64,000 nucleotides of DNA, taken from the NCBI GenBank assembly GCA_963920765.1, contig OY987248.1, positions 4,746,539 through 4,810,538 of the forward strand, in the 5' to 3' direction. The translations under genes and the position numbers were made by a program. The notes under the pieces were generated by a model. The model saw nothing but the letters and a program-made list of their open reading frames with translations. It had not been told where the DNA came from and did no database searches. Shown here one piece after another: positions 1 to 63,704 of the stretch (positions are counted from its first letter, which is position 1; every line of letters starts with the position of its first letter). Origin of the DNA: Ulota crispa (lineage: Eukaryota; Streptophyta; Bryopsida; Orthotrichales; Orthotrichaceae).

Positions 1-260
1 CAATTTTTTATTTTGATTTTATTTAAATGCAATATTTAAAGAAATTTTTGAGCTGCCCACCCTCCCTTGTTTTTTATAAATTCAAGCATAACTTCTTCAA
101 TAAATGTTGGAATGGAGAAAAAATTAAATGCCCACGTAGATCTTTGAATTCTCCATCTTCAATAAAAGTTTCAAAAAATCACACAGAGTAATTTAGCTAT
201 AAGTACATGCCCAAAATCCCATTTGTCCCTCAAGGAGATAGTTGGGCCTTTAGGAGTTAA
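1..260. mobile_element. TTAA-family element, right arm only (A/A2 type, cut by window start)
   Basis: The sequence matches the conserved right arm of other copies (for example 26634-27568 and 40205-41145). Shared blocks include 'cccacgtagatctttgaatt', 'aaaagtttcaaaaaatcaca' and 'catgcccaaaatcccatttg'. It ends in GGGCCTTTAGGAG-TTAA at 257-260. The left part lies outside the window, so I cannot tell whether it is an A hairpin or an A2 element. Non-autonomous; no coding sequence. Confidence 0.75.
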
Positions 261-3239
261 ACTAAAAGTTGATACTTGTTGGTACTTCACATTATGTCCG
301 AATTGCTTATATGGCAACACTCTTTGGAAGTTTGTGTCAAAGAAGGTAGGTGGAGTTTTGTTCAAAATATGGATCAATCAGTTTGCTAAACCCAACGTTC
401 AACCCAAAGCTCTCGGTTATATGTGCTCAAAAACTCGTTTCTATAACCGGGGCATGTAAACTAAGTTCGGGCTCGTTCAAAAACAAAATGGAAAACATGA
501 AAAATTGTTGACTTTGAAAACTGTGATAATTAACAAAAAAAAACATGTGGGTTTACAAAATTCAACATCCTTGGGTGGGTTATCTCAAAGCAGGCAACTA
601 CAATTAGTACCTAAGTGATTGATAATAATCAAATTTACGTTTACCGTAATCTTCCTTTGAAGACAATGAGATACATGTTGTGTTCACATTGTGCAAGGGG
701 CCTCATACTATTGGATTAAGAAATGTACAAAGTTTTCAGTTAGAATAATTTCTGAAACCAATTGAACAAACTCTATTCCATTGAATTTGAAGCATAATTT
801 TATTATGAACATATTTGGGTTGAGTTTAAATTTTTGGTCATAATGTTTGGGTGTTTTCTACCATGTTTAAATACAACAAATATTATGAGTTGTGTTTGAG
901 GGAAGGGATCATTATAAGGTAATAGGGTTCAACATAAGCTAATTGCTAACATCTTAAGGTCTTTATTTTGGTCCTAAATGAAAATTTCATTGACATACTC
1001 TATTCAGTAATGTCATCATTTCCATCAAAATTAATTTCAGATATATGAAGTATTGTTATTAATCGCTTGGTCTATCCAGAATACTATCATTTTCAATCAA
1101 AACAAGTTCTAATTTCTTGATATTTGCATTCAAACAAGCAGTGTCAAGGACATCCAATCTAATACTACGGTCATTTATGTTTTAATTTTAAAATAGAAAC
1201 CATCTATGCGTTGTTGTTCAATAACCTTGTAAACATAAAATAATGACACGTAGTATCTTTTCATGATTAAAAAAGAAGTTGCTATAATGATATTCAATGA
1301 AGAAACATTCGAAGAAAGAGCAAACGGTACTCTTTGAATGCCTCTTATTAGCTTAAGTACACTCTATAGACCCTAGCGGATTAAGGAGCATTTGATTACA
1401 ATTGGCAATGTTTAACTCTTTAATATCATTTTTTTTGAGAATGATGAATTTTAGAAAAATTCTTGAAGGGATGGAAATTTTGATTTCTTCAGATGATTCA
1501 ATTGAATACTTTCCTCAGATCCCTTGAAGTTGTGGTTATACCTTGGTGTTTACGTTTATTTCTGTAGCTACATAATTATGATAGTGGATATTTTTATTAA
1601 ATTTAGCCACATTTTGTGAACATTTGTAGGTGTGGAATTAACAGTCACCTTTCTTATCCTCTTAACACCGAAATCATATCTTTTGGACTTTTCCAAATTA
1701 TTTATTATACTTGTCTATAAGTACTAGGATCCTCCAAACGTTGAAGAATTTGGGTTAGGATTATATTTCATATCGTTTGCATGAAAGTAAGAAAATATCC
1801 TAAAGTTGCATTCAATAAGTTATTCAGTTACTTTTACCAAAGGACTTTAATTCAAAGATGAATATGTGGTCATGTTTTCCCAAATTTTGGCTTAAATTAA
1901 AAAGGAAAATTTTAGCAATTCTGATATTAGACAATTTCTACACTTTTTTGTTGAGAATATCCCACATTCAATCTATGCCTTCTAAATTCTAATGCTATCA
2001 AGACTTTCTTGTATACAATTGTCCCATCATTTCCATCAAAGCAGTTCAGTTGACGGTGATCCAACTTTGCCTTCATTCCAGGAACTGGCTCAATTATACC
2101 TCACCAAGTAAAACTCGGTATAAAACAGGGCCACTGAAATTTTGTTCAACACTTGAATTTTAGAACTTAGTTGGGAAGCTGTAGGGGCACTTTACACCAT
2201 AAAATATCATGTCCAACAGATCCGTGATGAACCCACTATTGAACTCAAGTAGGTATTATAAATTTACAACGTTAATATGTATGTTATTTGTAATTTTTAA
2301 TCTAAAAGGCTTGGGGACCAATTGTAAGTTCAATTTGAATGTCCAAACAATAGAACAAGAAATAAGTGAACGCAAGTCAAAGAAGAGAGACTCTTAATGT
2401 ATTCAATAAAGGAGAGGGGAAGAGAGAAGAAGGGCATAGATGAGGGGAGAGAGAAGAAGGGCACATAGTGGAGGAGAGGAGGGGTTGGACAATGAGAATG
2501 TTTATAATATATTTTATTCTCTTAAAATGCATCTTGGTCGACTAGTAGAAAACTTTCTTTTTCTGTTGTTTTGATTGCGTTGATGAGTGCACATTTCTGT
2601 TAATGTTCCAAAATAGTGCCATCCAGATTTCATGTCATATTTTCATTATAAATCTCAACTCCCAATGTAAAATCCTTAGGATTCATTTTTACTTTCCACT
2701 AATAAGATTACCAGGTTTTTGAAATTCCTCCAAACTAAATCCTAGAAAAAGGTGACCCTTAGAATACCGTAGTAAGACCTTGCCCTTGTCTTTGCCATGA
2801 CCAAAAAAATCAAAATAAAAATCCAAATTGGCTTGTTTACATTCACATGAATTAAAGATGGTTTTGGTTTTGTAGGCATGTACTTAACTCACCAAGTGTC
2901 ATTCATTCATTGTAAAAAATATCATGCCTTTTGAATTCAAGGTGATCATAAAAGTGAAAATGGTTTAATAATTTTGATGTTTTTTATGAGTAATATATGA
3001 ATGGAAGTGAGTTGTGTGTAATATGTTTTAGTTGCAATATGAACTGTTCAGGTAGTGGTTCATTTATTTCAAGGTACTAGCCTTTTATTAGTGAATTTTT
3101 TGTCATAACTCTCATTCATTCTTCACAAGAGTTGCTTTTTACCTCTTGACTTTCTATAGATTTTGACATTAATAAATTTATAAAAAAACAAAAGCCATGT
3201 CACACTCTGGTAGGACTTGAAACCTTAAAAACATGACCT
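261..3239. other. AT-rich intergenic DNA, nothing recognised
   Basis: I see no convincing gene. Open frames are short and unlike any protein I know. A purine-rich stretch at about 2410-2480 holds a roughly 27-bp direct duplication built from 'gaggggagagagaagaaggg'-like units, probably simple-sequence expansion. Confidence 0.5.
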
Positions 3240-4050
3240 TTAACTCCTAAATGTCTAAGGGTACTATTCTTGGTTTAGGAAGGCATTTTGGAAGTTTTGA
3301 GTTGCAATTGTAAGATAATTATTGAACATTAGTAAAAAATTGTAACTATAAGATCTTGAACTTCAAGGCTTCTATATGATGCCAAAAAAAATCTTAAAGA
3401 GCCACATGGATGTTAAGATGTTTGTGATTGTATGTGGATGAGTATGGATTTTTTTGGTTTTTTTGGAGCCACCCAAAACTTCTAATGCAAAAATGGCAAC
3501 TTTAGTGTAAAATTTTGGGAAACAATCACTTGTAATGATTTAGTGTTTAAAGTTGCTACTTCAAAACTAATGACCCCCCTTCCAAATCCATGAACACAAT
3601 TCCATTAATGAGCCTACAATACAATTGTTAAATAGCTACTATATAATACAAAGATTTTTTGTAGCTTTTACTAACCAAAAATTATTATGAATGAGAGAGG
3701 ATTCAATAGTGGTTGAGTTCTAATTTGTATAACAAAAACATTTCAAGTGAAATTAGCACAATAGCACATTCAAATTTGTTAAATGATGAAATTTTGATAA
3801 AAGAGCCCTCATTGCCCAAGGAAGTGTCCAAGGGAGATCTTGAGTTTGTTCTCAACTTGTTGCTTATCTTTCCAAAGTGGCAGCTTGTCATGGGCTCTTT
3901 AGAGATACTGTTCATCATGCTTTTTGGTATACAACAAGCATGCTTGGAGTTTGACTTCCACCAAAAGTATCAAAATGTAGTATGAAAGACATTCAAATAT
4001 AATATTAAGCTAACTTCAAACCATGTCTTTTCCAAAAAAGATTTTTTTTT

Positions 4051-4752
4051 AAGGTAGACACACCCATTTCCAACCACTCCTCAATTCCGCACCCTAGTTT
4101 TGAGGTGTTCACCGTCCACTTTGGAATCCAAAGTGGAGCAATGAATGTTGCTTGCACAAGCAAATTTTGCCACATGTCAATTGCTAAGCTACACTTTGGG
4201 AGGGTTGGGATTGGGACCGTCAAGTGCCATTATAGGAACACATCTAAAACCTCATATTCATTAAAATGGGAATTTTCCATTGAAATGAGAGGTAATGTAA
4301 AGGAAATTTGACAAAAGGTTTTATGTCAATTCAACTTGATTTGAGCTAAATTAACATAAAACCTTTCAGATTTGACCTAAAATTAGAAAGTTTTAACTTA
4401 AAATTAGAAAGTGTTATTGCAATTTAGCTTAATTTGAGCTAAATTGCAACATAACCTTTCAAAACTGACCTAAAATTGAAAGGTTTTATGTCTTTTTTGG
4501 TTATTTTGGGAGGTGCCCAATCTCCCATTTTAATGAATATGGTGTTCCAAGAAATTTCAAGATTAGTCTAGAGTTGCTAATAGAGATCCTATGAGCTGCA
4601 ACTTTGCCCTTCAATATAAAATAATCTACAATGGTTCAAAAATTACACTCCATGATAGCTTGTTGAAAGGCTAACCCTTCATTTTTTTTTAAATTTCCGA
4701 GACCTTGAAGTACCCAAAATCCTTAAATGGTTGGGTATGGGTATGTCTACCT
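4051..4752. mobile_element. Family H element (AGGTAG ends) nested in G
   Basis: Terminal inverted repeats are AGGTAGACACACCCAT on the left and ATGGGTATGTCTACCT on the right, flanked by TA on each side (within TTAA). It is inserted in the G element and is itself split by a C element at 4247-4546. Confidence 0.65.
4247..4546. mobile_element. Family C element nested in H
   Basis: Left end is ACCTCATATTCATTAAAATG; right end is CATTTTAATGAATATGGTGTT. The interior, with repeated 'aaaccttt...gacctaaaat' palindromic segments, is shared with the copy at 9438-9732. No clear target duplication is left. Confidence 0.75.
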
Positions 4753-4865
4753 TAATTCAAATCTTTGCCTCTAACAAGGTCTCAAAGTTTCGTGAACACC
4801 CAAATTAGGTGCCTTAGGTATTTAGGGGTTAAAATCTTAAGAACACTTAATCTCTAACACATTTA

Positions 4866-5245: not shown

Positions 5246-5646
5246 AGGTAGAACCACCCACTTCCAATCATTTAAGCTCTTGTAGGACAACACATTAGAG
5301 CAACAATGCAGCACAAATTTTTCTTTGGTGGCTTCATACAAAATATTATGATACAAAAAATTTCAAAAATTTTCACAAAAAAAAAAAGAATTACATACAA
5401 ATTCTGAAGTGCATAAAGTGTTCTAAATCCATATGCAATGATCACTAGACTCTCCTAATCATGATCATAGCCAAAACACTTCTTGCTCAGTACTTCCTAT
5501 TTTCTTTTGGGACACATGTCACGACCTCATTTGTCTTAATCTTGAAAAGAGAAAAAATACGCATTCCAAGGCTTGGAAGTAGACGTTGGAAATAGCACAC
5601 CTTAGACTAGGTTTGGATCCCTAGTTGGGAATGGGTGGTTCTACCT
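5246..5646. mobile_element. Family H element
   Basis: Ends are AGGTAGAACCACCCACTTCC and its inverse GGGTGGTTCTACCT, flanked by TA. Its right TA overlaps the TTAA that begins the next element (5646-5649). An orphan TTAA-type right end (GGGGTGAGGGG-TTAA, up to 5243) lies just outside its left edge. Confidence 0.65.
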
Positions 5647-6521
5647 TAACCCCTCAGCGCCCCTACGTCCCAAATCTTGCCTCTCCAAATTTAATTGGGG
5701 TTGCAGAGGCGCCATATGGGGATGAACCAATCTCGTAAAGGTACCAATTAATTTTGTAGTGGTTTAGAGATGAGACAAAGTGGCTGGCCGGTTTATTAGG
5801 GCATCCCCAATGCAGCCATAAGAGAGGCAGGCAAAACTTGTGCAATGCTTTAAACCGGAGTTGAGCAAAAATATGGGCTCCAATGCAGCAGTTAAACCAT
5901 ACTGCATTTTTCAGGACTCCCTACATAAGAGCCCCTTCCCTACAAATTTTCACTATTTGGAGAGTCATGCATACCACTCCAACTCTAGCTCTGATGCAAT
6001 TTCAAGGAATTTCAAATACTTCTGACATGAATCAGCCACACATAAGCACTTAAAAAAAACATAAACTAATAAAAAATTGTGGTTAGTGAGTGTCATAAAT
6101 TGCTTGCATTTGGGGTTGTTGAATTGGGAAATAATCGTGCTTTGTATCTGACTCCAAGTTGGACACGGTCTGACACAATTCACTGGGCTGATATCTCAGT
6201 TGGATTGGGGATGCCCTTAGGATGTCTTGGGAGTCATGGATTGGGACATCGTAAACAAAAGTCCTTTGGAGCCTTCTCAATAGTGCTGGGTGCCCATGAA
6301 TTCTTGTCAACCACCAAAGGTCAACATGCCTTTGACCGATATAATCACAAAATCAATACGGTCAAATTTTACCATACTTAGTGTATAGTTCTGAGTTGAA
6401 AGTCACTATCATTTTCGAGGGTTCATTTTTTGGATACCATTTCTCGCTACTCAAAATTGAATGGAACGTGGTCTTCTTGGCCTCCATATCAGCCATTTCG
6501 CTCTGGGCGCTTAGGGGTTAA
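5646..6521. mobile_element. TTAA-family P element
   Basis: Left end TTAA-CCCCTCAGCGCCCC and right end GGGCGCTTAGGGG-TTAA form an inverted repeat of about 17 bp next to TTAA on both sides. It is the only copy of this interior in the window. A Harbinger-like MITE (5799-6216) is inserted in it. No transposase is visible. Confidence 0.65.
5799..6216. mobile_element. PIF/Harbinger-like MITE, family K, nested in P
   Basis: Ends are GGGCATCCCCAATGCAG and CAGTTGGATTGGGGATGCCC, flanked by an exact TTA duplication (5796-5798 and 6217-6219). GGGCATC-type ends recur at 7023-7592 and 56676-57115. The overlapping open frames of about 60-100 codons inside it look like chance. Confidence 0.8.
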
Positions 6522-9732: not shown

Positions 9733-9809
9733 TTAGGAGCAAGAAGCACATCATAAAAATAATAAAAATGTGTAGACATGGAACAAAAAGTGCAAGAGTG
9801 GGGAGCATA

Positions 9810-13969: not shown

Positions 13970-15625
13970 TTATTGCCAAGGACATGACGCCAGAGTGGGT
14001 GAATCCGAGGAGAACCCGGAGCTGGAGTACTGTATACCCGACGTGGTTGATATGACAGAGTGTTCTGGAGAATACTGGAACGAGGCGGACTCCTGCGTGC
14101 TCTCAAGACTGGAACATGACTGGGGGCTGCTGCGGAAGCCCAGATTCACGTCGACGGGCTCTGGCAATGTAGTTAAACAACCGTGCCGGATGCATTCATT
14201 TGGACTGAGACCTTGCAGTACTGGCACTCGCGTCGTTGGTGGGAGTGATATGAACTCCGGTGATTTGTACTTGTTCTGAGTGCCAAGGTTGGCGTGCAAC
14301 ACTGTCGCACTTCCAGTCGACGTCCTGGACGGATGATACGCTAGTTTGCTACTTGGCCAAGGAAGATATGCCAATGGGAAACTACTCGTAACGGCCTTTG
14401 GGAATGAATCCACGCCGAAGTTCGTCTTCGCTTTCGCCCCACGAAGCGCCCTTGCAGCTGCAAAATAACTCACCGAGATTAGACAAGCAAGGAAATGAAG
14501 GGCAGGTACTTAAAATTATTCAAAGAAAACGTTAAGCACGAGATTCGTGTTTGAGAGAGGGGTACCACTATCATAAGCCCTGGCAGCGTCCTCGGCGGTG
14601 TCAAAGGTGCCTAACCAGTGACGACACCGTCCAATTCTGTCACGGATCTCCGCAGACCATCGCCCCCACGGCCGCTTCCTCACACCTCGAAACGCACGTC
14701 CCGTGATGCAGCTCGCAGCCTCGCCGCTTGCTTCTCGGTCGCCTGCATCAGCAACGGTACTTGTGGCCGAGCATCCACTGGAAACACCACCACGTCGTTG
14801 GTACAATTCACCTCCAAAGCAGTTGAGTTTCAATGAACCACTACCGTGATCAGTTCCTTTAGAGATTGCTCGACGATATTTTTCCAGCTCCATCTTGTGG
14901 AGAGGTTTGAAGCTGGTTGATGACGTGGGTCTGAAAGTCCCCAGTGACGATGCTTTGAAACTCTCCCCAGTGGAAGTCTTAAAGCCTTCAGGAAGAAAAT
15001 CATCAGGAAAACCGCCTCTCTGTGACGAGCACACGGCCATCTGCAAGGCTTGATCCTCCAACACGTGATGAAAATCCGAATTATTCCATGTAGGGTTCAC
15101 CGACTGCATCGTCGTCGTGGTTTGCTCTGCAGTCGTGCCGAAGAGTACGCTTTGGCCCACAACAGCTGCAATTCCATCTAAATCTGGCTGGTCGAATGCG
15201 GTGCCAAACCTTTCAAGCAGAGAGGAAGCAGAGACTCTGCGATCCGTGTCCCCCGCATGGCATTGATCATGATCAAAACTGGTAAGAGTGTCACCGAGTT
15301 TAGCTGCTGGAGCAGCTGCAAATCCTCTGCCAGACAAGTCGACTTGCTCCTTGGTGACACCGAGGCTCTGGTCTTTCATCTTCTGCGGGAATGAGATGCA
15401 CGATTCAAGTAATGAACCCAGCGAGTTCACGGGGCTGGCAGCTCCTGCAGACCTGGACGTTTGCGAGACGCAACGATCACAGAGCGGGTGGAAAGCAGGT
15501 CCGCAGCATTGAAGGCACGCCATCCACGGTCGGTCCTTCTTTCTCGATACCACTTCCGGGGTCAGGTCTCGCCATTTGCGCTTCGCCGCTAGTCTGTTGT
15601 CCGGTAGCATATCGTGGAGTGCCAT
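13970..15625 (-). CDS. AP2/ERF-domain transcription factor, two exons
   Basis: Predicted nuclear DNA-binding regulator of the ERF family. Model: exon 1 15625-14566, intron 14565-14458, exon 2 14457-13970; 1548 nt, 515 aa plus TAA. The AP2/ERF domain spans about residues 312-367. Exon 1 gives [18 protein letters not shown] and [17 protein letters not shown]; exon 2 supplies [13 protein letters not shown]. Splicing at GTG|GTACCC...TTTGCAG|CTGCA (phase 1) restores the domain at its usual length (AYDSAARALRG), the main support for the model. Asp at the diagnostic '19' position favours ERF over DREB; position 14 is Ser. The start ATG has an in-frame TAG nine bases upstream. The N-terminus is basic (AAKRKW, SRKKDR), followed by a Cys pair pattern at residues 37/40/41 and 49/52. 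The middle and C-terminal parts are Ser/Thr-rich and may be activation or repression regions; I see no clear EAR motif. A 176-codon plus-strand frame (15391-15921) is its antisense shadow. The subgroup is not resolved, and the C-terminus may differ if more exons exist. Confidence 0.88.
14458..14565 (-). other. Intron of the ERF gene, inside the AP2 domain
   Basis: 108 bp, donor GTACCC, acceptor TTATTTTGCAG. If retained, translation runs on 16 codons ([16 protein letters not shown]) to a stop at 14516 and loses the last part of the AP2 domain, including the conserved ALRG and AKTNF segments. An alternative donor four bases upstream (GTGGTA) keeps the frame but shortens the domain by one residue, so I prefer the GTACCC site. 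Confidence 0.8.
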
Positions 15626-16840
15626 TTCTACCTAATCAGTGCCAGATGCCCCAACTTCCTGCCAATCCCAGTCGCTCTCGGACGATTCATCAACAGCCGC
15701 ATATACAAAGCATACTAGCTCAGCAGTTCGTCGAAAACCTCAAGTATTACCAAGACATACATGCTAACTCGAAAGAAAGTCAAATGAGAGTCTTCCCGAA
15801 GAAAAGTACATTGCTAAAGAGCGAGAACCCGTTGATGACCTGCACACAAGGCAAGTTTAGTACTGCTAATCACAGACACATCCAGGATTTTTTGCAAGGC
15901 ACCGAGGGATCCCAGTCTTGAGACTCTGGACCGGCTAGAGAATGATACGCCTACCTGCAAAATGATCACCGTCATGCTACTGAATGATTCCCTTCATTCT
16001 CATCGATATCACAAGCGGGATCACAAGTGTGTCGCATCAGTCCCGCCCACCCTTTTTCAGCTGTAAAGCAGCTCCTTGCTACCAATCAAACCACCCAGCA
16101 ACTGGAGCGAGGTATGCCTAATTGCAACGAGAAACTATAGCTGTGCATGCACGTAATTCTATTCCATCTCTAGCAGCAAGAGACTCTCGTCTGAGCTCCA
16201 CCCCAAGTAAGTTAGAGATTGCAATGATTCAGGTTACAGGGATGATCATTGTGTAAAAGATTCAGCGTAGGCGTCTAGAAGCATCACTCAAAAGCCCGGT
16301 GAGCAAAGCAGCTCCTCAGCTGAAAGCTGCATCGTCGGTTGTTTCAGTATTGTTGCTGCATTGGTCTTAGCAAAGCCAGTCAAGGAGGAAGCTCTTGACC
16401 GGTCTTTGGAAGAGGAAGCAGCAGAGGCTAGATCCTCCAAGCAAAGAAGGATGTAATGATGACAAGGCTCGCAATCAAGACAAACTCCATGCATAGTCTG
16501 AGGGAGCAAGGCTCGGGCTTCACGTAAGCTTAACACATAGCCAGCAGTAGCTCTAGTGCAAGTACTGGGCCCCAGGCATTCGGACAGGCAGCGGCAACTT
16601 ACGAGTCTCGCATGCGCAACCGCAGACGCCCAAGGGCGACAACACTAACACTCGCCAGACCCAGGCTTCGGTACGCTCGTATGCCAAGCCACCGCTGAAG
16701 CATGCGGCATTTATCTGGCAGCACCCTTGGCAGCAGTTGCTAGTATGGCAGGCACTATGGCTACGTCGTCCCAGCTAGTTAGCCTAGTTAAGCTTCCTAG
16801 CCTGCCTGCCTTCCTTCCTTGGCGTAGCTCAGTCCATGTA
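15626..16840 (-). promoter_or_regulatory. Presumed 5' leader and promoter region of the ERF gene
   Basis: Low-copy, GC-richer DNA upstream of the start codon, ending at an H element. No clear TATA box could be fixed. A minus-strand open frame at 16536-16288 (82 codons, with a Cys cluster reading CLDCEPC) could be an upstream ORF, an exon of something else, or chance. The segment 16560-16830 is rich in CCTGCC/CTTCC-type tracts. Confidence 0.4.
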
Positions 16841-38789: not shown

Positions 38790-39656
38790 TTAACTCCTAA
38801 AGGACCAGTGTCCCTTTGGGGGACAAAAGGGAATTTGGGCATGTACCTTTGGATAATCTACTTTGTGTGAATTTTTGAAGCTTTTATAAAAGGTGGGGAA
38901 TTCAAAGATCTATGCAGGCATCTAATCTTGCATCTAAATTTTTCTTCATCCTAACATTTGACAAAGAAGTTATGCAAGAAATTATTGTAACTAGGGGAGG
39001 AGGGCACTTTGGGCAGCCCAAAAAATTTCTTTAATTTTTAAAATTAAAATAAAAACTTGGAATTGGTTCTTTAGATTTTTTTTTACAAGGGAAGCTTTGA
39101 ATTATTCAATTTCAATCAATGAGATGAAAGTTATGAGGAGTTTTTTTGCTTGTGGGGAGTTTTGGATTCTCTGCTCTAAAACAAACTTTGAAGTCCTTTA
39201 TTTTACTCAATTTTCAATATTTTGGAAAAATAAAATAAACCAAAGGAAGTAGATTGCTTATCCCAACATTGTAACCGTTGGGATTTGCATTTTTCATTTC
39301 AAATAATTAAGCTCTTAACAATTTAGTGTCTTGACTCATTCTCTTCTTCTTTTTACTTACTATATTTTTCATGTGTGTTGAATAGTTCCAATTGATTTGA
39401 AAATTCTTTTGCATTCACCTAACTTGATCTCCTACATGGAAAAATAAAAGCACAATTTTGGGTAGAGCAATTTTGTTTCATGTAGGAGTATTCAAAGGCT
39501 TTTGAAATTTAATGGCAACAAGGAAAAATGCCTTTTCCTTTCACTTCAAATGTAAATATCTCCCTCCTCTTCATCTAGAAGGACCTGTTTTTGTCCCAAA
39601 AAAAAAATCTACCTTCTTACTCATACCCTAGAAGTGGTAGTTTTTAGTGATTTTTG

Positions 39657-39689
<33 letters not shown>

Positions 39690-39707
39690 TGGTCCTTTAG
39701 GGGTTAA
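38790..39707. mobile_element. TTAA-family A2 element, reverse orientation
   Basis: TTAA-CTCCTAAAGGACCAG to CTTGGTCCTTTAGGGG-TTAA; 918 bp. A 29-base A run (39659-39687) stands where sibling copies have about eight A/T bases. Confidence 0.85.
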
Positions 39708-39992: not shown

Positions 39993-41199
39993 AACGCCAT
40001 ATTCATGAAATTGGAATTCCCAAGTTGTACTTCACCTTAAACTCAGTGTTTCTCTTTAAACCATTTAAACTTCAGATTTGAAGGTATTAAATTTAGTTTG
40101 AGGCATTGAGATTTTGTCCCTTGCAAATATCTCCTCTCAAGTGAGGGCACGTGTATAAAAAAAAAACAATATTGAAACCTAGAGCTCGGTTTAAGGTGGT
40201 TACCTTAACCCCTAAAGGACCAAGCCCTTTTTTTTTGCCAAAACTACTAAAAACTGCCACTTCTAGGAGGTTTAGAAAAAAACAGATATTATGTTTTGTT
40301 TTTGGGAAATCCAACCGTAGGATCTTGCCCCACACTAGAAGAGGTACTTGTGGAAAAAAAATCAGCTCATTCCAAATGGAGAGGAGTGAGATATTTACAT
40401 CAAAAGTGAAAAAAAAGTTTTTTTCCATGCTGCCCAAAAATTTTAGAAGCCTTTGACCACTCTTATAACAAAAAATTTGCTCTACCCAAAGTTGGGCTTT
40501 ATTTTTTCCATGTAGGAGATCAAGTTAGGTATGAGTAGGAGAAATTTCAAATCAATTGGAACTACACAACACATGGGAAAAAATAGTATGTAAAAAGAAG
40601 TAGAGAATGAGTCAAAACACTAAATTGTAAAGAATTTAATTATGGAAATGAAAAATGCAAATCCGAATGGTGATAATGTTGTGATAAAACAATCTACTTC
40701 CTTAGGTGTAGTTTTTTTTCCAAAATATTGAAAATTGAGTAAAATAAAGGACTTCAAAGTTTATTTTAGAGTAGAGAATCCATAATTGCTAGCAAATAAA
40801 AACTCCTCATAACTTTCATGTTATTGATTGAGATTGAATGTTTCAAAGCTTCTCATGAGTAAAAAAATCTAAAGAACCATTTCCAAATTTTTATTTTAAA
40901 AAAACATGATTTTTAAAGAAGTTTTTGGGCTTCCTGGACGGGTAATCCTCCCCACTTTTTTTGAATTTCATGCATAACTTCTTTGTCAAATGTTGGAATG
41001 AAGAAGAAATTAGATGCCCACGTAGATTTTTGAATTCTCCACCTTCAATAAAAGTTTTAGAAAATCACACAAAATAGTTTAGCCATAGGTACATGCCCAA
41101 AGTCCAACTTGTCCCCCAAAGGGACAACGGTCCTTTAGGGGTTAAACCTTGTTTATTCACAAAATAGGTGTTTCTTCCCAATTTAATGAATATGGCGTT
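39993..41199. mobile_element. Family C element nested in I and split by A2
   Basis: Left end AACGCCATATTCATGAAATT and right end AATTTAATGAATATGGCGTT, flanked by ACAG on both sides (39989-39992 and 41200-41203). The A2 element at 40205-41145 is inserted in it at a TTAA. Confidence 0.85.
40205..41145. mobile_element. TTAA-family A2 element inserted in a C element
   Basis: TTAA-CCCCTAAAGGACCAAG to CGGTCCTTTAGGGG-TTAA; 941 bp. The uninterrupted sibling site at 43460-43463 has one TTAA where this copy is flanked by two, so TTAA is the duplicated target. Overlapping frames of about 100 codons (40093-40456) are repeat-internal. Confidence 0.92.
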
Positions 41200-43097: not shown

Positions 43098-43575
43098 TCT
43101 ATTATTGCTTTCAAAATCTACTTCTACAATTTTTTCAAATAGATTTTTAATGTGGATTTTCTCTAAGCTGTAGTGTATTTGAGGCTCATCTTCAAGATCT
43201 ATTAACACTAGAAAACTCTAGACTGTAGTGGACACCCTTATACAAAATCTTGAATAGAAAAATCATCAACATTCATTTCAAAATCAGATTTTTAATGTTG
43301 AAAATAAACTTCAAAACAAACTTTCATTGAAAAAATAAAAAATAAAAATAGTGATTTGATAAAGTTTTATTCATACAGCCATAATTCATTAAATTAGGAA
43401 AACTGAATCCCCAAGTTGTACTTCACCTTAAACTTAGAGCTTGGTTTAAGGTGGTCACCTTAAACTTAGTTCATTCCCAAAATCAAGATTTTTTCCTAAA
43501 TTAACAAAGGTGACATTTCATCTTCAAAGTTTTATAAACACCTAAATTAAGGTTGCCTGGGCATTTCGGGGTTAA
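43098..43575. mobile_element. TTAA-family B element, reverse, truncated at its inner end
   Basis: The sequence is the reverse complement of the left half of 25314-25963 and 31365-32013, ending CCTGGGCATTTCGGGG-TTAA. A C element interrupts it at 43375-43517. The missing half would lie toward the H element. Confidence 0.8.
43375..43517. mobile_element. Short family C element nested in B
   Basis: Interior AATTCATTAAATTAGG to CCTAAATTAACAAAGGTG, flanked by TCAT (or TTCAT) on both sides. The B copy at 31365-32013 has the same site with a single TCAT (ATGA on its strand), confirming the duplication. Confidence 0.8.
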
Positions 43576-44224: not shown

Positions 44225-45124
44225 TTAACCCTTTAGAGACCACCGAACCATATTTTGGTTCCGGAGAGTGGTTTTTGGCCTATAGGGTAAAATAGCTCAA
44301 CAATTTGGAAATTGGTCTTGAAGAATGCTTGTGATCACAAGAATTTTGCATCCAATCCAAAAAATAACAATGGAATCGGGTATTTGAGTTGATAAATAAT
44401 GGTGTTTATATGGCAAGGCTTCAAAATACATATCCATATTTGGTCAAAGATGGATCAAAGCAGCAATATTATACATCAAACATCCAAGAGGAATGTCAAA
44501 TTTCAATTGTGTTGTCCTAAAAAATTTCAAATCGCTCAAGAAATACACTTGTATAGTTTCTCTATACGGTAATAGTATAATTGTAATATTTGAAGATCTA
44601 CTATAACGATGCTATCACTTTGTTGTCCTACATTTAAGGCCAATTTGTTATTTTTTCACCAATTGGATTTTTAATAGCATTTATCAAGTTTCTTGTAAAA
44701 CTATTTTTGGGTAGCAAAGAAAGTGGGATTTTTGACCCTTTTTGTCCACTTAGCTACACCTTGCAATTGCTATTTTTATTTATTTTGTGTGAAACTAGTC
44801 TCATTGGAAAGGTGGGAAACCCTACTTTCTAGACATATAAGGCTCTTCTCAAGCAAAGCTTGTATGAAGCAGTAAGATCCAAAACCACACAAACATGAAA
44901 ACTACAAATGTCATGCCTTTAACTCACTCAACTATTATAATATTTCACCTCCAATGGTAGATCTAGTTGAGATTTTAATGCTTTATTGTAAACAAGGTGT
45001 ACTTCCCATTTGTGCAGTTGGATTATTGAAATTGGGTCCACATTTGATTAAACCACACATCCAAGTTTACTACCCTAGTCTCTAATGGATTTTGTGAAAA
45101 TATGTGTGGTCTTTAAAGGGTTAA
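44225..45124. mobile_element. TTAA-family E element
   Basis: TTAA-CCCTTTAGAGACCAC at the left and GTGGTCTTTAAAGGG-TTAA at the right; 900 bp. Unique interior in this window. Confidence 0.8.
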
Positions 45125-45730: not shown

Positions 45731-45954
45731 TTAACCCTTAAACTTCCCTAGAGCGTAGTAGATATGCTACCGTAAAATTGGCATTTACTATCATCAAAAA
45801 GTTGTAATTTGGAATCTCAAATAGCTCACTAGAATTGCATTGATTTATATTCCAATTTCTTTGTTGACCTTAAATATATGGACCATTTCAAATACAAGAA
45901 AAGTACCTTGCATTGTATTGGTCATAGCAGCATGCTCAAATGCTTAAGGGTTAA
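45731..45954. mobile_element. TTAA-family F element, complete 224-bp MITE
   Basis: TTAA-CCCTTAAACTTCCC to GCTCAAATGCTTAAGGG-TTAA. It is homologous to the interrupted copy at 19974-20658 and is the shortest complete TTAA element here. Confidence 0.8.
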
Positions 45955-46344: not shown

Positions 46345-47068
46345 GTCTCGCCTAAAGAATCAAAGTCCCATCGGGGGACTTTCGGGGTTTTGGGCATGTA
46401 CTTATGGCTAAACTACTTTGTGTAATTTTTTGAAATTTTTATGGAAGATGGGGAATTCAAAGATCTGTGTGGGTATCTAATTTTTACCTCATTCCGATAT
46501 TCATTGAAGAAATTAAAAATGAATTTATGAGAATTTTATGGCAGGCTGCCCAAAAACTTTTTTAAAATTTACATTTTTAAAAAATAAAAATTTGAGATTA
46601 GTTCTTTAGACTTACATATATGTGGGAAGCTTTGAATCATTCAATTCTAATTGATGAGATGAAAGTTATGAGAAGTTTTAGTTTGGAGGTAGGTGTGGAG
46701 AATCTCAAAACAATGCCTACACGCAAACTAAAACTTCTAATAACTTTCATCTCATCAATTGGAATGGAATGATTCAAAGCTTCTCACATATACATAACTC
46801 TAAAGAACTAACCACAAATTTTTATTTTAAAAAAAATGCAAATTTTAAAAAAGTTTTTGGGCTGCCCGCCAAACTAAAATTCTCATAAATTCATTTTTAA
46901 CTTCTTCAATAAAAGTCGGAATGAGAAAAAATTAAATGCCCACACAAATCTTTGAAATCCCCATCTCCTATAAAAATTTCAAAAAATCATGCAAAGTAGT
47001 TTAACCATAGATACGTGCCCAAAATCCCATTTGTCCTTGAAAAGGGGACTTGGTCCTTTAGGGGCTAG
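46345..47068. mobile_element. TTAA-family A foldback element, decayed ends
   Basis: 724-bp palindrome collinear with 23409-24138, including the central 'gtaggtgtgg...cctacac' loop. The left end reads GTCT-CGCCTAAAGAATC and the right CCTTTAGGGG-CTAG, so the TTAA flanks are lost. Confidence 0.8.
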
Positions 47069-47386: not shown

Positions 47387-48334
47387 TTAACCCCGAAAGG
47401 TTCAAACAGTGTTTTTTGGCAACATAGCGTTTTTGGGCAGCTCACTACCAATGGATTTTTCTTTTTTTTTCTTTGAAATTTTCACACATGACGTGTCCAA
47501 GGAGTAGCTTTAAGGCCCAACAAATTTCATAACTTTTGACTTCATGGTTCAAAAGTTATTGCTTGATATGTAATTTTCTTTGTTCAGGGGCAGCCTGGGC
47601 AGCTCAAAAAACTTCTTTAAAAATTACATTTTTTGAATTTTGTTTTTTGAAATTATTTCTTTAGATATACATATATATATCCTTGGAAAGCTTTGAATCA
47701 TTCAATTTTCATCAATGAGATGAAAGTTATGAGGAGATTCTGTTTGCGGGCAGTTATGGATTCCCTACTCTAAATTTTTTTTTAAGTCCTGTGTTTTACT
47801 CAATTTTTAATATTTTGGAAAAAAAATAAAGCCAAAGTATGTAGATTGTTTATTAAAACATTTTGACCATTGGGATTGGAATTTTCATTTTTCATAATTA
47901 AATTCTTAACAATTTAGTGTTTTGTATCATTCTCTACTTCTTTTTACTTACTATTTTTTTCCTATGTGTTATACATGTCCAAATGATTTGAAATTTGTCA
48001 AGTGTGTACCTGACTTGCCTTGAAGAATGAAGACTAAAAATTACAACCATTTTGAAACTTTTTCATATAAATATGACCTTGTGAAGTGCAACTGCCCGGA
48101 TTTTTGCAGGGACAAAAAACAACTTTTTGTCAATTCAAACTCAATCGCCTAACAATCCACATGGCAAAAATTTCTGAATTTTTTTCCACATTTTTGGATA
48201 CTAGTGTACTACAAAATCTTACGGTTGGATGTGTCCAAAAATAACTTTTTTCTAAAATTTGATACTTACACTACAAATGGCAATTTTGAGGCAGTTTTGA
48301 TGTAAACATAGTCAAAAAAACCTTTAGGGGTTAA
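47387..48334. mobile_element. TTAA-family A2-like element, divergent left arm
   Basis: TTAA-CCCCGAAAGGTTCAAAC to AAACCTTTAGGGG-TTAA; 948 bp. The middle ('aatgagatgaaagttatgag', 'gattccctactctaaa') matches A2. The left arm with 'ttttttggcaacatagcg' is a variant also seen at 49327. Confidence 0.8.
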
Positions 48335-50224: not shown

Positions 50225-51137
50225 TTTACCCCTAAAGAACCAAGCCTATGTTGTTTTGTAAAAGTCACTCAAAAGTGCCACTTCTAGGGGAATGAGTAAG
50301 AAAGTAGGAATTATTTTGTCTTGAAAACCCAATTGTAGGATCTTGTTCAAGGCTATGAAAGGTGCTTGTGGGAAAAGGATCAACTCATTTCAAATGAAGA
50401 AGATTGAGACATTGATATCCAAACTATAAAAAAGCTTATTTCCTTTGTGCCCAAAACTTTCACAAGCTTTTGGCCTCTTAGTAAAAAAATTGCTCCACAT
50501 AAAGTTGGGGTTTAATTCCTCAATGTAGAAGACCATGTTAGATTTGTGTAGGAGTAATTTCAAATGAATTAAAGTAGTGCAACACACTAGATAAAATCTT
50601 CCAATGCTAGAAGGTCTTGAATGTTGCAAATACACTATCCAAAATTGGAGGCATTATATTCATTTCAAAAATCTAAATTATACTAATCCAAACACTGAAA
50701 CAATAGAGTCTTAGTCTATTACAACTTGAAATTTAAAAAAAAACAAATACACATATCACTTAAAAAATTAAGCTTCCAAATTTTGCAAGAGGCAATGGAA
50801 TGGAGATTGGGCATTCCTCAAAACAAGTCCCTTCCACTTCACTTCCATTTACCCAAGTGATCACACCTTGTGCCCCTAGAGGCTAATTTTTTTTGAAGTC
50901 AATACACACTTACAAAAGAGAGGCACTACACAAATTGCCCTTCCACCCCTAGTTTTTGTAAAGTTTTGCCCAGCTTCTTCTTTGAATTTTAGAATGAAGA
51001 AAAAATTAAACGGCCATGTAGTTATTTGAATTCCTTGCCTTCTATGAAAATTTCAAAAAAGCTCACAAACTAGTACAAGCATAGGTACATGCCCAAAATC
51101 CCATATATCTCCCAAAAGGACATTGGTCTAGGGTTAA
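50225..51137. mobile_element. TTAA-family A2 element
   Basis: TTTA-CCCCTAAAGAACCAAGCC to TTGGTCTAGGG-TTAA; 913 bp, with A2 hallmarks 'tgccacttctaggggaatga' and 'catgcccaaaatcccatata'. Confidence 0.8.
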
Positions 51138-53337: not shown

Positions 53338-54531
53338 TTTATCCCTAAATGCCCAAGGCACCTAATTCCGGTGTTCAAAAAAATTCAAGAAACTTTGAAA
53401 CCCTATAGAAGTCACATATTTCATTGTTTTTGGGGTATTTTTTTGGAAAAGTTGCACATTGAATTTAGCTTCATTGCTCAAATTTGATTTTCTCCTTATC
53501 ATATTTCAAAGTTTTTAGTGGAAGATTAACTAGAAGCATACATTTTGTGTCATGAATAGTGTCATGAAAAATGTCATGAATAGTGTTGTGAATAGCTGTC
53601 ACAGAGCCTATGACAAGTTGTCACATTGAAATGATGGGCATCAAGTTGAGATAAAGGTGAAGATTTTCCTTGGGCACTCCCTTGGGCAATAAGGGCCTTT
53701 TTACTAAAATTTTGACATTTAACAAAATCTAAAAGTGCTTTTGGGCTAGTTTCACTTGGAATATCTTTGTTATAAAAATTAGAACTCATTCACTGTTGAA
53801 CTTTCTTTCATTCATAATGATTTTTTGCCAATAATCAAAGCTAAAAAAAATCTTTGTATTAGATGGTTGCGCTTTGACAAATGCATTATAGGCTCATTTG
53901 TGAAACTGTGGTCATGGATTTTGAAAGTGGGTCATTAGTTTTGAAGTAACAACAATAACCACTAAAGCATTTGAACATCATATTCGTTAAATTGGGAAAA
54001 ATAGAGGTACCATTTTGTACTCTACCTTAAACCCAAAAAGTTATCTTAAACTAGATTCAAAGGTATCAAATTCAGTCTAAGCCACTAAGATTTTTTCCCT
54101 CACAAATTCCTCCTCCCATGTGAGGGCACGGGTACAAAAAAAATGTTGCAAGCTTTGTTTTAGGTGGTCACCTAAAACCTTCATAAGTCCCAAAATGTAC
54201 TATTTTTCCCAATTTAACAAATTTGGTGTTATCTTAGGTCACTAGGTGGTTGTTTTCCAATTTTGTATCCAAAAGTTGCTATTAGAAGTTTTGAGCAACT
54301 TCAAAAGAAGCAAAAAGTTCCATTCACATCATTGTTCAATCACAAATATCTTAAAATCCACGTGCTTGTTTTGGATTCTTTTTTAGTAGCTCCATCTAGA
54401 AGCCTTGAAGTTCAAGATTCAACAATTACAATTTTGCTTTGATGTTTATTAATGATCTTACAAGAAAAATTGAAAAACTTGATGATTGCCTTCTAAAAAC
54501 AAGAAAAATACCCTTGGATATTTAGGGTTAA
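53338..54531. mobile_element. TTAA-family G element carrying a C element
   Basis: TTTA-TCCCTAAATGCCCAAGGC to ACCCTTGGATATTTAGGG-TTAA. Collinear with 59724-60613 and, inverted, with 3240-4832. The C element lies at 53974-54230. Confidence 0.8.
53974..54230. mobile_element. Family C element nested in G
   Basis: Left end AACATCATATTCGTTAAATT; right end AATTTAACAAATTTGGTGTT. The interior ('gtgagggcacgggtac') matches 39993-40204. Flanks TTTG and ATCT do not match, so the duplication has decayed. Confidence 0.75.
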
Positions 54532-55009: not shown

Positions 55010-55214
55010 TACGACAGTTAGCTTGCTGGCATGTTTCATGGGAAAGCAGACGTTACAAACCACCTCATGTGTGAACACCGGGACCTTAACTCCCTTTCAT
55101 ATTTTTAGGAACTTCATTTCCGGGTTATACCTCTGACAAACTTGTATTTTTTTCAACAGTGATTAGTTTTACATTTTATAACCGCTCTTTGTAAACACCA
55201 TGTGTGAATGGGGC

Positions 55215-56137
55215 TTAACCCCTAAAGGACCAAAGTCCCTTCACGGGATTAATGGGATTTTGGGCATGTACCTATGGCTAATTTATTTATTGTGATTTTC
55301 TGAAACTTTTATTGAAGGTGGGGAATTCAAAGATCTACGTGGGCATTTAATTTTTTCTTCATTCCAACATTTGATGAAGAAGTTATGCATGAATTTATGA
55401 AAAATTGTGTTTGAGGGGCAGCCAAAAACTTCTTAAAAAATTTCATTTTTTTCAAATAAAAATCTGAAATAGGTTCTTTAGACGTACACAGAAGTGGGGA
55501 GCTTTGAATCATTCAAATTTGATAGGTGAGATGAAAGTTATGAGGAGTTTTTGTTTGCGGGCAGTTCTAGATTCTCTACTCTAAAATAAACTTTGAAGTC
55601 CTTTAATTTACTCAATTTTCAATATTTAAAAAAACAAAAACAAAACCAAAGGATGTAGATTGTTTATGACAACACTATAACCGTTGGGATTTGTATTTTT
55701 CATTTTTATAATGAAATTCTTAACAATTTAGTGTTTTGACTCATTCTCTACTTCTTTTTACTTACTCTTTTTTCCCATGTGTTGTATAGTTCCAATTGAT
55801 TTGAAAATTCTCCCACACATAGCTAACTTGGTCTCCTACATGGGAAAAATAAACCTCAACTTTGTGTAGAGTAATTTTTTTGATCTAAGAGTGGTCAAAG
55901 CCTTCTGAAATTTCTGGGCAACAGCAAAAAAAACTCATTTCCGCAATTTAGATGTATATATCTCACTTAGTTTTGCATAGATTGAGCTGAATTTTTTATC
56001 TCGTGTACCTCTTGTAGTTTATTGTAAGATTTTATGGTTGAATTCTTATAAAAAAAAAAAATTCTTACTTGCTTCCCCAAAAGTGACAGTTTTCTGTGTT
56101 TTTCACAGAAAAAATGGCTTGGTCCTTTAGGAGTTAA
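55215..56137. mobile_element. TTAA-family A2 element, reverse orientation
   Basis: TTAA-CCCCTAAAGGACCAAAG to CTTGGTCCTTTAGGAG-TTAA; 923 bp. Confidence 0.85.
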
Positions 56138-57115: not shown

Positions 57116-57116
57116 T

Positions 57117-59723: not shown

Positions 59724-60613
59724 TTAACCCCTAAATGCCCAAGGTGCCCAATTTGGGTGTTCAAGAAACTTTGAGACTTTGTTGAAGGTAGAGGTTTTTT
59801 TTTGTTTTTTTTTTTGGAGAAGTTGCAATAGCTTCAATGTTCAATTTGAATGTCTACCATACAACATTTCAATTATTTTTGGTGGAAGCAAGATCTCAAG
59901 CATGCATGTTGCATTCCAAAGAGTGTGATGAGTAGTGTCACTAAAGAACCTATGACAAGCTGTCACATGGAAAGATGGGTAGCAAGTTGAGAATAAATTA
60001 AAGTCAAGATTTCCCGTGGGCACTCCCTTGGGCAATGGGAGCCCTTTTACTGAAATTTCATCATCTAACAAAATCTAAATATGTTCTTGTGCTAATTTCA
60101 CTTGGAATATTTTTGTTATACAAGTTAGAATTCATTCACCATTGAAAATTCTTTCATTCAAAATGATTTTTGGTTAATTGCTGGAGCTAAATGTTTTCTC
60201 TATATTAGGTGGTAGCTCTTTAATAATTGCATTGCAGGCTCATTTGTGAAATTGTGATCATAAATTTGGAAGGGGAATCATTAGTTTTGAAGTAGCAACA
60301 ACAAGTACTAAATCATCATAAGTGGTGGTTTTCCAATTTTGTACTCAAAAGTTGCCAATATGCATAACAAGTTTCAAGCAGCTCCAAAAAAACAAAAAAA
60401 TTGTACTCATCCACATTCAATCACAATTATCTTAACATCCGCATGGCTTTTTTAGAATATTTTTTGACAACACCATCTAAAAGCCTTGAAGTTCAAGATC
60501 CTACAATTACAATTTTTTGTCAATGTTTACTAATGAACACACAACGACAATTCAAAAGTTTTCAAAATGCCTTTGTGAATTGAGAAAACTACCCTCATGC
60601 ATTTTGGGGTTAA
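59724..60613. mobile_element. TTAA-family G element, first link of a chain
   Basis: TTAA-CCCCTAAATGCCCAAGG to CATGCATTTTGGGG-TTAA; 890 bp without insertions. Its final TTAA (60610-60613) is also the first TTAA of the next element. Confidence 0.85.
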
Positions 60614-61208
60614 CCCCAAAATGACCTTGGAATTTGCTAAGCTTCTTGGAGTTTTCTCTAATTTGAACAAAAAATCAACAATTTGATGAGTTGTATCAAC
60701 TCTTTTTGAATTGTAACCGTATAAATCAAACTAGACATGTTAGAGATCACATAAGAAAAGAAAAGAAAACAACATCTCTTATGGATTGAAAGACTGATGT
60801 TAGATCATGAGGGTGTTAAAATTGTGAAAGTGATTTTGAAGTCTTTCAATCTTCTTTTCACATGTCAAATTTAAAAAGTTGGTCACCAAAAAAATATGAG
60901 GTTAAATGGCCTAACATGCATAACCCCAATTAAATTATGACTTCTCAAAATCTACTCCAATTTTTTTTAAATGGATTTCTAATGAAACTTTTTCTCAAAA
61001 ATCTAGTGTATTTGAGGCTCATTCCCAAGAGCCCTCAACACTACATAAAGTCAAGATTGCAATGGACACCCATGCTCAAAATTATGAATAGAAAAATCTT
61101 AACCAATCATTTGCAAAATCAAATTGTTGAAGCTAAAACTAAACTTCAAAAAGAAAATTTCAAAAATATGAATTACTAAAATTAATAAGTTGGTAAGGTT
61201 TTATTTAA
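60610..61208. mobile_element. TTAA-family B element, reverse, terminally truncated
   Basis: TTAA-CCCCAAAATGACCTTGG begins a reverse B copy. The last 60 bp or so expected before its other TTAA are missing, and it runs straight into the next element's TTAA at 61205. Confidence 0.8.
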
Positions 61209-62125
61209 CCCCTAAAGGCCCAAGCCCTTTTTCTGTGAAAGTCACTGGAAGCTGCTGTTGTGGGGGAATGAGTAGAAAAGTAGGAAATACTTTTTTTTTT
61301 TGCAAATCCAACCTTAGGATCTTGCCTTAGACTAGAAAAGGTACTTGTGGGAAAAGAATCAACTCATTCTAGATGAAGAGGAGGGAGATTTTTACATCTA
61401 AAGTGTAAAAAGAGGTTTTTGTACATGCAGTTCAAAACATTTAGAAGCCTTTGACTACTCTGACATGAAAAAAATTGCTCTACACGAAGTTCAGGTTTAT
61501 TTTTTCCATGTAGAAGACCAAGGTAGGTATGTGTGGGAGAATTTTCAAATCAATTGCAACTATACAACACATGGGAAAAAATAGTAAGTAAAAAGAAGTA
61601 GAGAATGAGTCAAATCACTAAATTGTTAAGAATTTCATAATTGAAATGAAAATGCAAATCCTAACAATTATAATGTTGTGATAAACAATCTACTTCCTTA
61701 GGTGTAGTTTTTTTTCCAAAATATTGAAAATTGAGTAAAATAAAGGACTTCAAAGTTTATTTTAGAATAAAGAATCTGTAACTGCCTACAAACTAAATGT
61801 CTCATAACTTTCATGTCATTGAGTAAAATTGAATGATTCAAAGCTTCCCACATATCAAAAAAAATCTAAACAACCAATTTCAGATTTTTATTTTTAAGAA
61901 ATACAAATTTTAAAGAAGTTTTTGGGCTGCCTAGATTGCCCTCCCTCCCTCGGGTTGCAGAAATTCTTGCATAACTTCTTTGTCAAATGTCAAAATGAAG
62001 AAAAAATTAGATGCCCGGTTAGATCTTGGAATTTCCCATCTTCAACAAATGTTTCAAAAAATCACAAAGCCTAGATAAGTTATAGGTACATCCCCAAAAT
62101 CCAAGGCTGGGCCTTTACATGTTAA
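61205..62125. mobile_element. TTAA-family A2 element in the chain
   Basis: TTAA-CCCCTAAAGGCCCAAGCC to GGGCCTTTACATG-TTAA; 921 bp. The right TTAA (62122-62125) is shared with the next, oppositely oriented A2. Confidence 0.88.
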
Positions 62126-63055
62126 TCCCTAAAGGACCATTGTTCCTTTGGGGGACAAGTTGGACTTTGGGCATGTACCTATGGCTAAACTACTTTGTGT
62201 GATTTTCAAAAACTTTTATTGAAGATGGGGAATTCAAAGATCTATGTGGGCATCTAATTTTTTCTTCATTTTGACATTTGATGAAGAAGTTATGCATGAA
62301 TTTATGAAAATTTGGGGAGGACTACGTGTCCAAGAAACCCAAAAACTTCTTTAAAAATCATGTTTTTTTAAAATAAAAATTTGGAAATGGTTTTTTTGAT
62401 TTTTTTATACGTTAGAAGCTTCAAATCATTCAATTTCAATCAATGAGATGAAAGTTATGAGGAGTTTTTATTTGCTGGCAATTATGGATTCTCTACTCTA
62501 AAATAAACTTTGAAGTCCTTTATTTTACTCAATTTTCAATATTTTGGAAAAAAAACTACACCTAAGGAAGTAGATTGTTTATCACAACATTATAATCATT
62601 AGGATTTGCATTTTTCATTTCAATTATGAAATTCTTAACAATTTTGTGTTTTGATTCATTCTCTACTTCTTTTTACTTACTATTTTTTCCCATGTGTTGT
62701 ATAGTCCCAATTGATTTGAAAAACTTCCTAGATAAGCCTAACTTGATGTCCTACATGGAAAAAGTGAAGTGCAATTTTGGGTAAAGCAATTTTTTTGTTA
62801 TAAGAGTGGTCAAAGGCTTCTGAAATTTTTGGGCAGCATGGAAAAAAAAATTGCAGTTGAGATGTAGATATCTCACTCCTCTCCATCTAGAATGAGCTGA
62901 TTCTTTTCCCACAAGTACCTCTTCTAGTATGGGGCAAGATCCTATAGTTGGATTTCCCAAAATAAAACATAAGATTCCGTTTTACTAAACCTCCTAAAGG
63001 TTGCAATTTTTAATGGTTTTGGCAAAAAAAAAGGGCTTGGTCCTTTAGGGGTTAA
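62122..63055. mobile_element. TTAA-family A2 element, reverse, in the chain
   Basis: TTAA-TCCCTAAAGGACC to GGGCTTGGTCCTTTAGGGG-TTAA; 934 bp. With the previous element it forms an inverted pair about 1.85 kb long. Confidence 0.88.
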
Positions 63056-63704
63056 CCTCTTACTACCCTAGGGGCCCAAATCGGGCTTCTCTAAATTTTA
63101 TTTAGGGATGCTCAACCTTTCTACAATATTTTTTTAGTGATTATTATTATTTTTAAACTCTAATTGAAGTCTAGTTTTAGCATCAGAAGTCTGATTTTGA
63201 AAATGAATTAAAGTGATTTGTCTATTCAAGATTTTGTGCAAGGGCATCCATTGTAAATCTTCACTTTCTAGTGTTGAAGGCTCTTGGAAATGAGCTTCAA
63301 GTACACTAGAACTTGGAGAAAAAATCACATTAAAAATTTAATTAAAAAAACTGTAGAATAGATTTTGGGAAACCGTAAAATGATTGGGGTTAAGCATGTT
63401 ATACTTTATATACTCATATTTTTTTGGTACCCTCAATTTTAGGTTTGAGATGCAAAAAGAGGATTGAAAGGCTTCAAATCATTTTTGTAGTTTTAACACC
63501 CTCATGATCAAACATTGTAGTCTTTCAATCCATAAATGACATTGTTGTGATTTCTTATCCTATGTGATCTATAACATGTCTACTTTGAATTTGTATGGTT
63601 GCACCTTAGAGAAATTTGATAAGATTGATCAAAACGTAGGCATTTTATTCACTTTCAAGCAAATTCTAAGATATTGCAAACTACCATGGGCGATGAGGGG
63701 TTGA
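63052..63704. mobile_element. TTAA-family B element, last link of the chain
   Basis: TTAA-CCTCTTACTACCCTAGGGG to CCATGGGCGATGAGGGG-TTGA; 653 bp, collinear with 25314-25963 but more diverged at both ends. Confidence 0.8.

Follow-up and report, generated by a model that had tools for sequence, protein, structure and literature searches.

The window analysed here is a whole 64,000-nucleotide stretch of nuclear DNA from the moss Ulota crispa (contig OY987248.1, positions 4,746,539 to 4,810,538; G000:C7:4746539-4810538 in our own numbering), taken from a genome of 274.8 Mb in 157 contigs. Repeats occupy 33% of it in self-comparison, and among them is a set of elements bounded by TTAA and ending in inverted repeats of the CCC(C/T) type. 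We read these elements as miniature inverted-repeat transposable elements (MITEs) of the piggyBac superfamily, handled at their terminal repeats by the transposases of longer piggyBac elements in the same genome, and put the probability of this reading at about 0.93. It is carried by the ends that MITEs and transposase-bearing elements share, by the homology of one MITE family (A) to such an element, and by insertion at TTAA with identifiable empty sites. Transposase-bearing loci elsewhere in the genome are given L numbers. The features of the window are collected in Table 1.

TTAA elements of the window

Counted from their termini, 19 elements have both ends located, 16 of them with an intact TTAA on each side; one TTAA is mutated in 50225-51137, 53338-54531 and 63052-63704. 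Another three have lost one end (46351-47067, 60610-61208 and 61205-62105), and solo ends include those at 260, 22303, 29730, 36438, 43575, 48898 and 63757, which together come near the roughly 30 copies claimed in a preliminary description of this DNA. Self-comparison places most of them in family P (7 copies, mean identity 75%), G (4, 74%), A (3, 74%) or Q (2, 79%), the rest being single elements. As is usual for MITEs they are short, high in copy number and devoid of coding capacity: the longest stop-free frames of the consensus sequences are 52 (P), 67 (G), 103 (A) and 58 (Q) amino acids, and were judged by eye, without a profile search, not to resemble transposases.

The ends fit the piggyBac pattern, defined in PMC2872659 as terminal inverted repeats of 12-19 bp starting CC[C/T]T next to TTAA: CCCCTAAA.. 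and CCCTT.. ends occur on A, G, P, Q, F and the element at 44225, taking the first Cs as CC(C/T), and the fourth base is C rather than T in the CCCC types. A common terminus of TTAA followed by a CCCCTAAA-type sequence had been proposed for the whole set. This stands for much of it, and fails for 44225-45124 (ends CCCTTTAGAGACC), 5646-6521 (CCCCTMAGCGCCC) and the end at 63757 (CCCAAAAATGACC). The interiors, described earlier as unrelated, do vary, and the description was overstated for P and Q, G, A and F: the A and G consensus sequences have 37 identical bases among the first 38, Q repeats the right end of P as an inverted duplicate, and 47387-48334 carries about 400 bp of P interior between ends unlike those of P. 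Neighbouring elements have one TTAA in common at 60610 (A and G) and at 63052 (P and G), and a truncated G adjoins P at 61205. The segment 60644-63671 has a roughly 3-kb inverted layout, G-P / P-G, at 75% identity, possibly reflecting independent insertions of these elements into each other's TTAA.

piggyBac transposases in the genome

A search of the genome with the PF13843 (DDE_Tnp_1_7) profile, which the preliminary description had suggested, gave at least 120 matching stretches (best 1.3e-73); the figure is a minimum because scoring covered 116 of 528 candidates. The frame at L012 (472 amino acids) matches piggyBat (3.6e-18) and piggyBac (6.6e-16) in the PDB with the aspartate motifs aligned. 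The first catalytic aspartate is present in 26 of 27 domains, the second in 22 of 27 (N in the others) and the third in 23 of 26. Protein relatives numbered 13 for L012 and 57 for L011, none of them from nr, UniRef or NCBI in a search restricted to shared short words. The stops in the transposase stretches look mostly like TGA and TAG, an uncounted impression, and eight of the nine lost catalytic aspartates read N; such stops and aspartate-to-N changes are what C-to-T decay at methylated sites would give.

A tree and pairwise identities divide the 27 compared domains into about a dozen groups; between groups, identity is mostly 30-50% and the end sequences differ. The alignment of L016 with L023 (89-93%) runs exactly from one TTAA end to the other, with ends CCCCTTGAGGAC, so that the element borders of another group are fixed independently. 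Other end types are found at L005 (CCCTTTAGGGACCGG), L026 (CCCATTAAGGACCG) and L021 (CCCCAAAGTGAC), single ends beside L002, L014 and L024 read CCCCTAAGCACC, CCCCTGAGCGCC or CCCCTAAGCGCC, and CCCCAAA and CCCATTA are also among the deviating types. L011 (C1:1177500-1185500) is an intron-bearing piggyBac-like gene with open frames and no recognised terminal repeats. It was considered as a domesticated single-copy gene and rejected as such: relatives at 58-73% identity number in the dozens and almost all of them contain stops, which points to another transposon lineage.

These groups bear on the proposal that one TTAA-specific transposase elsewhere in the genome mobilises every TTAA family of the window. 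A, G, P, Q, F and the element at 23282 do have CCCCTAAA or CCCTTAAA in common, often with CCAAG-like bases next, and the expected TTAA-specific transposases were indeed found, with the same ends. About a dozen groups with group-specific ends, and further window elements resembling the ends of other groups, nevertheless make a single enzyme highly improbable.

Link between MITEs and transposase-bearing elements

Coding elements with the ends of the window MITEs, which the earlier account had proposed to look for, were found at L004 and L003, and homology to elements encoding DDE_Tnp_1_7 extends to A (L004 and L013), to the right side of F and to P (L003 and L017). The L004 element (5,746 bp; C5:10867266-10873011, minus strand, coordinates by arithmetic) has TTAACCCCTAAATGCCTAA and TTAA at both ends and a transposase with one stop. 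MITE A is matched by the outer parts of this element on either side of the transposase, 180 bp on the left (74%) and 586-587 bp on the right (83%), and is therefore an internal-deletion relative of the L004 element. L013 matches MITE A at 81% on the right side and weakly on the left (66%, E 7e-4).

The L003 element (8,033 bp; C7:11814404-11822436, plus strand) has two transposase stops and nested repeats inside. Its left 52 bp correspond to the right end of P (87%) and its right 58 bp to the left end of P (83%), while its right 592 bp match F at 69%. At L017, positions 1-366 of P are matched at 74%, ending at a TTAA 1,756 bp beyond the transposase domain. The right interior of L017 was tried as a route to the full mother element of P and abandoned, as most of its 29 matches span just part of the first 750 bases. 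By the similarity of their ends, the elements at 44225 and 5646 would go with other piggyBac groups; patterns for their end types have 621 (some sites doubly counted) and 616 matches in the genome.

The same evidence speaks to Kolobok, another transposase that duplicates TTAA (PMC6004289) and might have moved the set. Kolobok ends start with two purines, AGGRR in T2-MITEs (PMC6004289), whereas those of the window start with CCC, and piggyBac transposases lie inside elements with MITE ends; Kolobok transposases themselves were not searched for. We regard this origin as very unlikely. Sola3 elements, with a Sola transposase, are a further system that duplicates TTAA.

Termini and target sites

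Motifs were counted on both strands, with 100 Markov shuffles per order as background. TTAACCC occurs 38 times in the window, compared with a mean of 11.4 and a maximum of 21 among 100 first-order shuffles, TTAACCCC 27 times (2.7 expected), TTAACCCCTAAA 17 times (0.04 expected, shuffle maximum 1) and the 20-base terminus TTAACCCCTAAAKGMCCAAG 9 times (0 in 100 shuffles); CCCCTAAA directly follows TTAA at 17 of its 23 occurrences. The exact 20-base terminus is found 7,291 times in the whole genome, and its reversed control not once. The genome mean predicts about 1.7 copies in the window, which with 9 is thus a hot spot. At two ends per element, 7,291 exact ends would correspond to some 3,600 elements, which, with 0.65-0.94 kb per element, would make up roughly 1% of the genome; this is an estimate rather than a count, and we expect the true number to be higher because most window ends are inexact.

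Duplication of the 4-bp TTAA is seen in three pairs of filled and empty sites, covering one P copy, one Q copy and the L003 element, whereas no empty site was found for the A, G and F copies in the window itself. An M-family repeat is split by the P copy at 40205-41145, and the joined flanks of this copy align ungapped to 43430-43504, which holds a single TTAA (80% over 75 bp); two further M copies read TAAA at the junction. The Q copy at 23409-24138 splits the 23282-24976 element, the unsplit copy of which (L012:6349-7315) has a single ATAA. The L003 element sits inside an A-type MITE, which it interrupts precisely at a single TTAA, the joined flanks reading GGATTTTAAGATATT and the A consensus GGATGTTAAGATATT. 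Since an empty site exists for Q, this element with two palindrome-bearing ends has moved.

TTAA being palindromic, T-TA-ACCCC and TTAA-CCCC yield identical filled sequences, and a Tc1/mariner-like system duplicating TA, with ACCCC...GGGGT ends and favouring TTAA by chance, would look the same at a filled site; a family that appears to duplicate TA is present in the window. The outer T is retained, however. The 16-base terminus without its target occurs 8,661 times in the genome and is preceded by TTAA in 7,291 cases (84%), as opposed to 335 with the first T replaced by A, C or G, and by TATA in 2. As the coding partners of the TTAA elements are moreover piggyBac, this explanation has hardly any probability left. 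The mosaic interiors (the halves of G, the P interior in 47387-48334, Q as a palindrome of P ends) could suggest static repeats that acquired common termini through recombination and never transposed, an idea that the empty sites refute for one P copy, one Q copy and L003 and that thousands of genome copies ending at TTAA make scarcely tenable for the others.

Subterminal palindrome and proposed mechanism

A palindrome at about bp 15-33 is present on the right end of P, the left ends of A and G, Q and the element at 44225, though not in every copy. In 9 of 10 usable coding loci (L012, L013 and L016 were dropped) the palindrome score is higher upstream of the transposase, and in one it is equal. 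By analogy with piggyBac, where a cysteine-rich domain of the transposase dimer contacts, at one of the two ends, a palindrome spanning bp 17-33 and TTAA is opened at insertion (PMC7351741), the palindrome is a putative transposase binding site. An element at L027:2455-2897 (443 bp) has the palindrome-bearing end of P on both sides and a size unlike that of Q; it is perhaps a second case with two like ends.

Transposases of the longer piggyBac elements would bind the terminal CCC(C/T)-type repeats, and a MITE so bound would be excised and inserted at TTAA, leaving TTAA on each side. The transposase dimer may grip both ends, with its cysteine-rich domain contacting the palindrome and insertion opening the TTAA, as in piggyBac. 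The terminus CCCCTAAA(T/G)G(C/A)CCAAG is that of two related transposase groups, L003/L017 and L004/L013, and these transposases probably moved the MITEs of the window. MITE A derives from the L004 type through internal deletion and G probably likewise, its first bases being so close to those of A; F and P have their ends in common with the L003/L017 type, P too having presumably arisen by deletion, and Q consists of two palindrome-bearing ends of P in head-to-head arrangement.

Several observations weigh against these interpretations. At least one stop is contained in 110 of the 120 transposase stretches, and none in 10, so no claim is made for present activity. Fourteen control genomes gave no PF13843 match, a control that has little weight concerning plants. 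The central part of MITE A, about 144 bp long (consensus 181-324), has no match in L004, and the left side of F matches L003 weakly. A deletion origin of P rests on the 52-58 bp at the L003 ends, a weak 74-bp match and the 366 bp at L017, the left end of which was not found even after a 2-kb extension; no single transposase element holding the whole of P was found. Within the window the palindrome is modestly enriched at the ends, occurring in 8 of 40 of them compared with 13 of 160 stretches from the interior, the copies not being independent. Automated pairing of ends reached at least 14/20 in 13 of 27 loci; at L012, L013 and L016 the pair included an end of a neighbouring MITE. When the search ranges were equal, this score was reached in 11 of 27, as against 17.7% of 2,000 random window anchors; 16/20 was reached in 7 of 27 (9% of anchors) and 18/20 in 3 of 27 (0.85%), and the excess over random anchors is clear at 18/20 alone. 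The homology at L004, L013, L003 and L016/L023 is stronger evidence than this pairing.

Other features of the window

The AP2/ERF gene is the sole gene identified; the remaining short frames were listed without a profile search, and an Rfam scan of the window gave no family at threshold. Its closest named relative is Ceratodon purpureus M758_UG035500 (45%), and this counterpart sits on the Ceratodon U sex chromosome; the gene thus places the window in a moss.

A second type of DNA transposon is suggested by a 330-bp MITE family that is flanked by TA, bears AGGTAGGAGG as inverted repeats and looks Tc1/mariner-like by eye. One A copy carries an insert (4050-4755) that has TA + AGGTAGACA ends and holds a repeat (4248-4546) also present at 9439-9732. 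A purine-ended, Kolobok-like TTAA element was considered for this insert and rejected: its ends match, by eye, the style of the 330-bp family, and it is accordingly read as apparently TA-duplicating. The M family has AACACCATATTCATTAAATTGGGAA-like ends without TTAA flanks.

Table 1. Positions of elements, repeats and the identified gene in the window
Feature	Position	Strand	Remarks
AP2/ERF gene	13970..15631	-	At least 2 exons; Pfam AP2 1.4e-11; second exon compared by eye with Ceratodon protein
P-family MITE, 935 bp	26634..27568	+	TTAA at both ends
P-family MITE inside M-family repeat	40205..41145	+	Filled site of first empty-site comparison
Empty-site paralogue of 40205 P copy	43430..43504	+	Single TTAA at junction, 80% over 75 bp ungapped
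P-family MITE	62122..63055	-	TTAA common with G copy at 63052
P-family MITE	55215..56137	-	Self-comparison and termini
P-family MITE	38790..39707	-	Self-comparison and termini
P-family MITE, right end gone	61205..62105	+	Self-comparison and termini
P-family MITE, more diverged, left TTAA mutated	50225..51137	+	Self-comparison and termini
Q, palindromic, both halves the palindrome-bearing end of P	23409..24138	.	Nested in 23282-24976
Q copy 2, left end gone, right TTAA changed to CTAG	46351..47067	.	Self-comparison and termini
Host MITE of nested Q	23282..24976	+	Uninterrupted copy at L012:6349-7315
G-family MITE, 650 bp	25314..25963	+	Self-comparison and termini
G-family MITE, 649 bp	31365..32013	+	Self-comparison and termini
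G-family MITE, left end gone	60610..61208	-	TTAA at 60610 common with A; adjoins P at 61205
G-family MITE, diverged ends	63052..63704	+	Self-comparison and termini
A-family MITE, 890 bp	59724..60613	+	Internal-deletion relative of L004 piggyBac element
A-family MITE with M-family insert at about 53971-54242	53338..54531	+	Left TTAA mutated
A-family MITE with nested insert at about 4050-4755	3240..4832	-	Self-comparison
F element	30307..31139	+	Right 574 bp match right end of L003 piggyBac element
MITE with CCCTTTAGAGACC ends	44225..45124	+	Ends appear to resemble L005/L009 piggyBac group
Element with CCCCTMAGCGCCC ends	5646..6521	+	Appears to resemble single ends beside L002, L014, L024 transposases
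224-bp TTAA element, CCCTTAA ends	45731..45954	+	Self-comparison and termini
TTAA element with about 400 bp of P interior, not P ends	47387..48334	+	Self-comparison and termini
330-bp TA family copies	9808-10138, 16838-17178, 36534-36867, 42719-43053, 54685-55014, 63755-64000		
M-family copies	18130-18393, 53971-54242, 39993-41203 (split), 43405-43504		

Comparison with known systems and significance

The moss elements agree with the piggyBac superfamily (Trichoplusia ni piggyBac, piggyBat, coral AmiPB1-6) in TTAA duplication, CC(C/T)-type ends and a PF13843 transposase with three aspartates, and also in the palindrome that one of the two ends bears near bp 15-35, at bp 17-33 in piggyBac (PMC7351741). 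They differ in their moss host and in length, 5.0-5.7 kb (8.0 kb with nested inserts) compared with 2,472 bp (PMC10813416), and piggyBac is reported to need asymmetric ends in cells (PMC7351741) whereas Q has two like ends. The coral CMITEs (PMC2872659) likewise have TTAA, CCC(C/T)-type ends and ends that link them to a piggyBac of the same genome; they are about 100 bp long and better conserved in the interior than at the ends, unlike the moss MITEs, which are 224-950 bp long with conserved ends and variable interiors. Kolobok and the Xenopus T2-MITEs (PMC6004289) share the TTAA target and the large MITE sets, and differ in transposase and in their purine-purine ends.

The elements had been thought to represent a poorly described plant TTAA lineage. 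A literature search, mostly without subscription papers, fits this in that no report of moss piggyBac on such a scale was found among the papers listed: in the available text of a moss paper (PMC10619864) the match is the word "piggybacking" alone, and that of a Physcomitrium paper (PMC7466625) has no TTAA, MITE or Sola passage. Against it, PiggyBac is one line of a fern repeat table (PMC6890710) and is named among the MITE superfamilies of angiosperms (PMC10004981). The kind of element is thus known; judged by these sources, its abundance and diversity in the moss are unusual among land plants. We lean slightly towards an undescribed radiation of moss piggyBac elements, in which one genome houses about a dozen transposase lineages, every one of them with a separate end code and separate MITEs, and which includes transposed elements with two identical palindrome-bearing ends (Q and L027:2455-2897).

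It may be conjectured that moss annotations leave the piggyBac class unclassified. PiggyBac is a much-used transposon in genome engineering, chiefly known from animals, and the moss offers new pairs of ends and transposases; its many natural lineages, together with thousands of MITE ends, amount to a natural experiment on the end features that are required.

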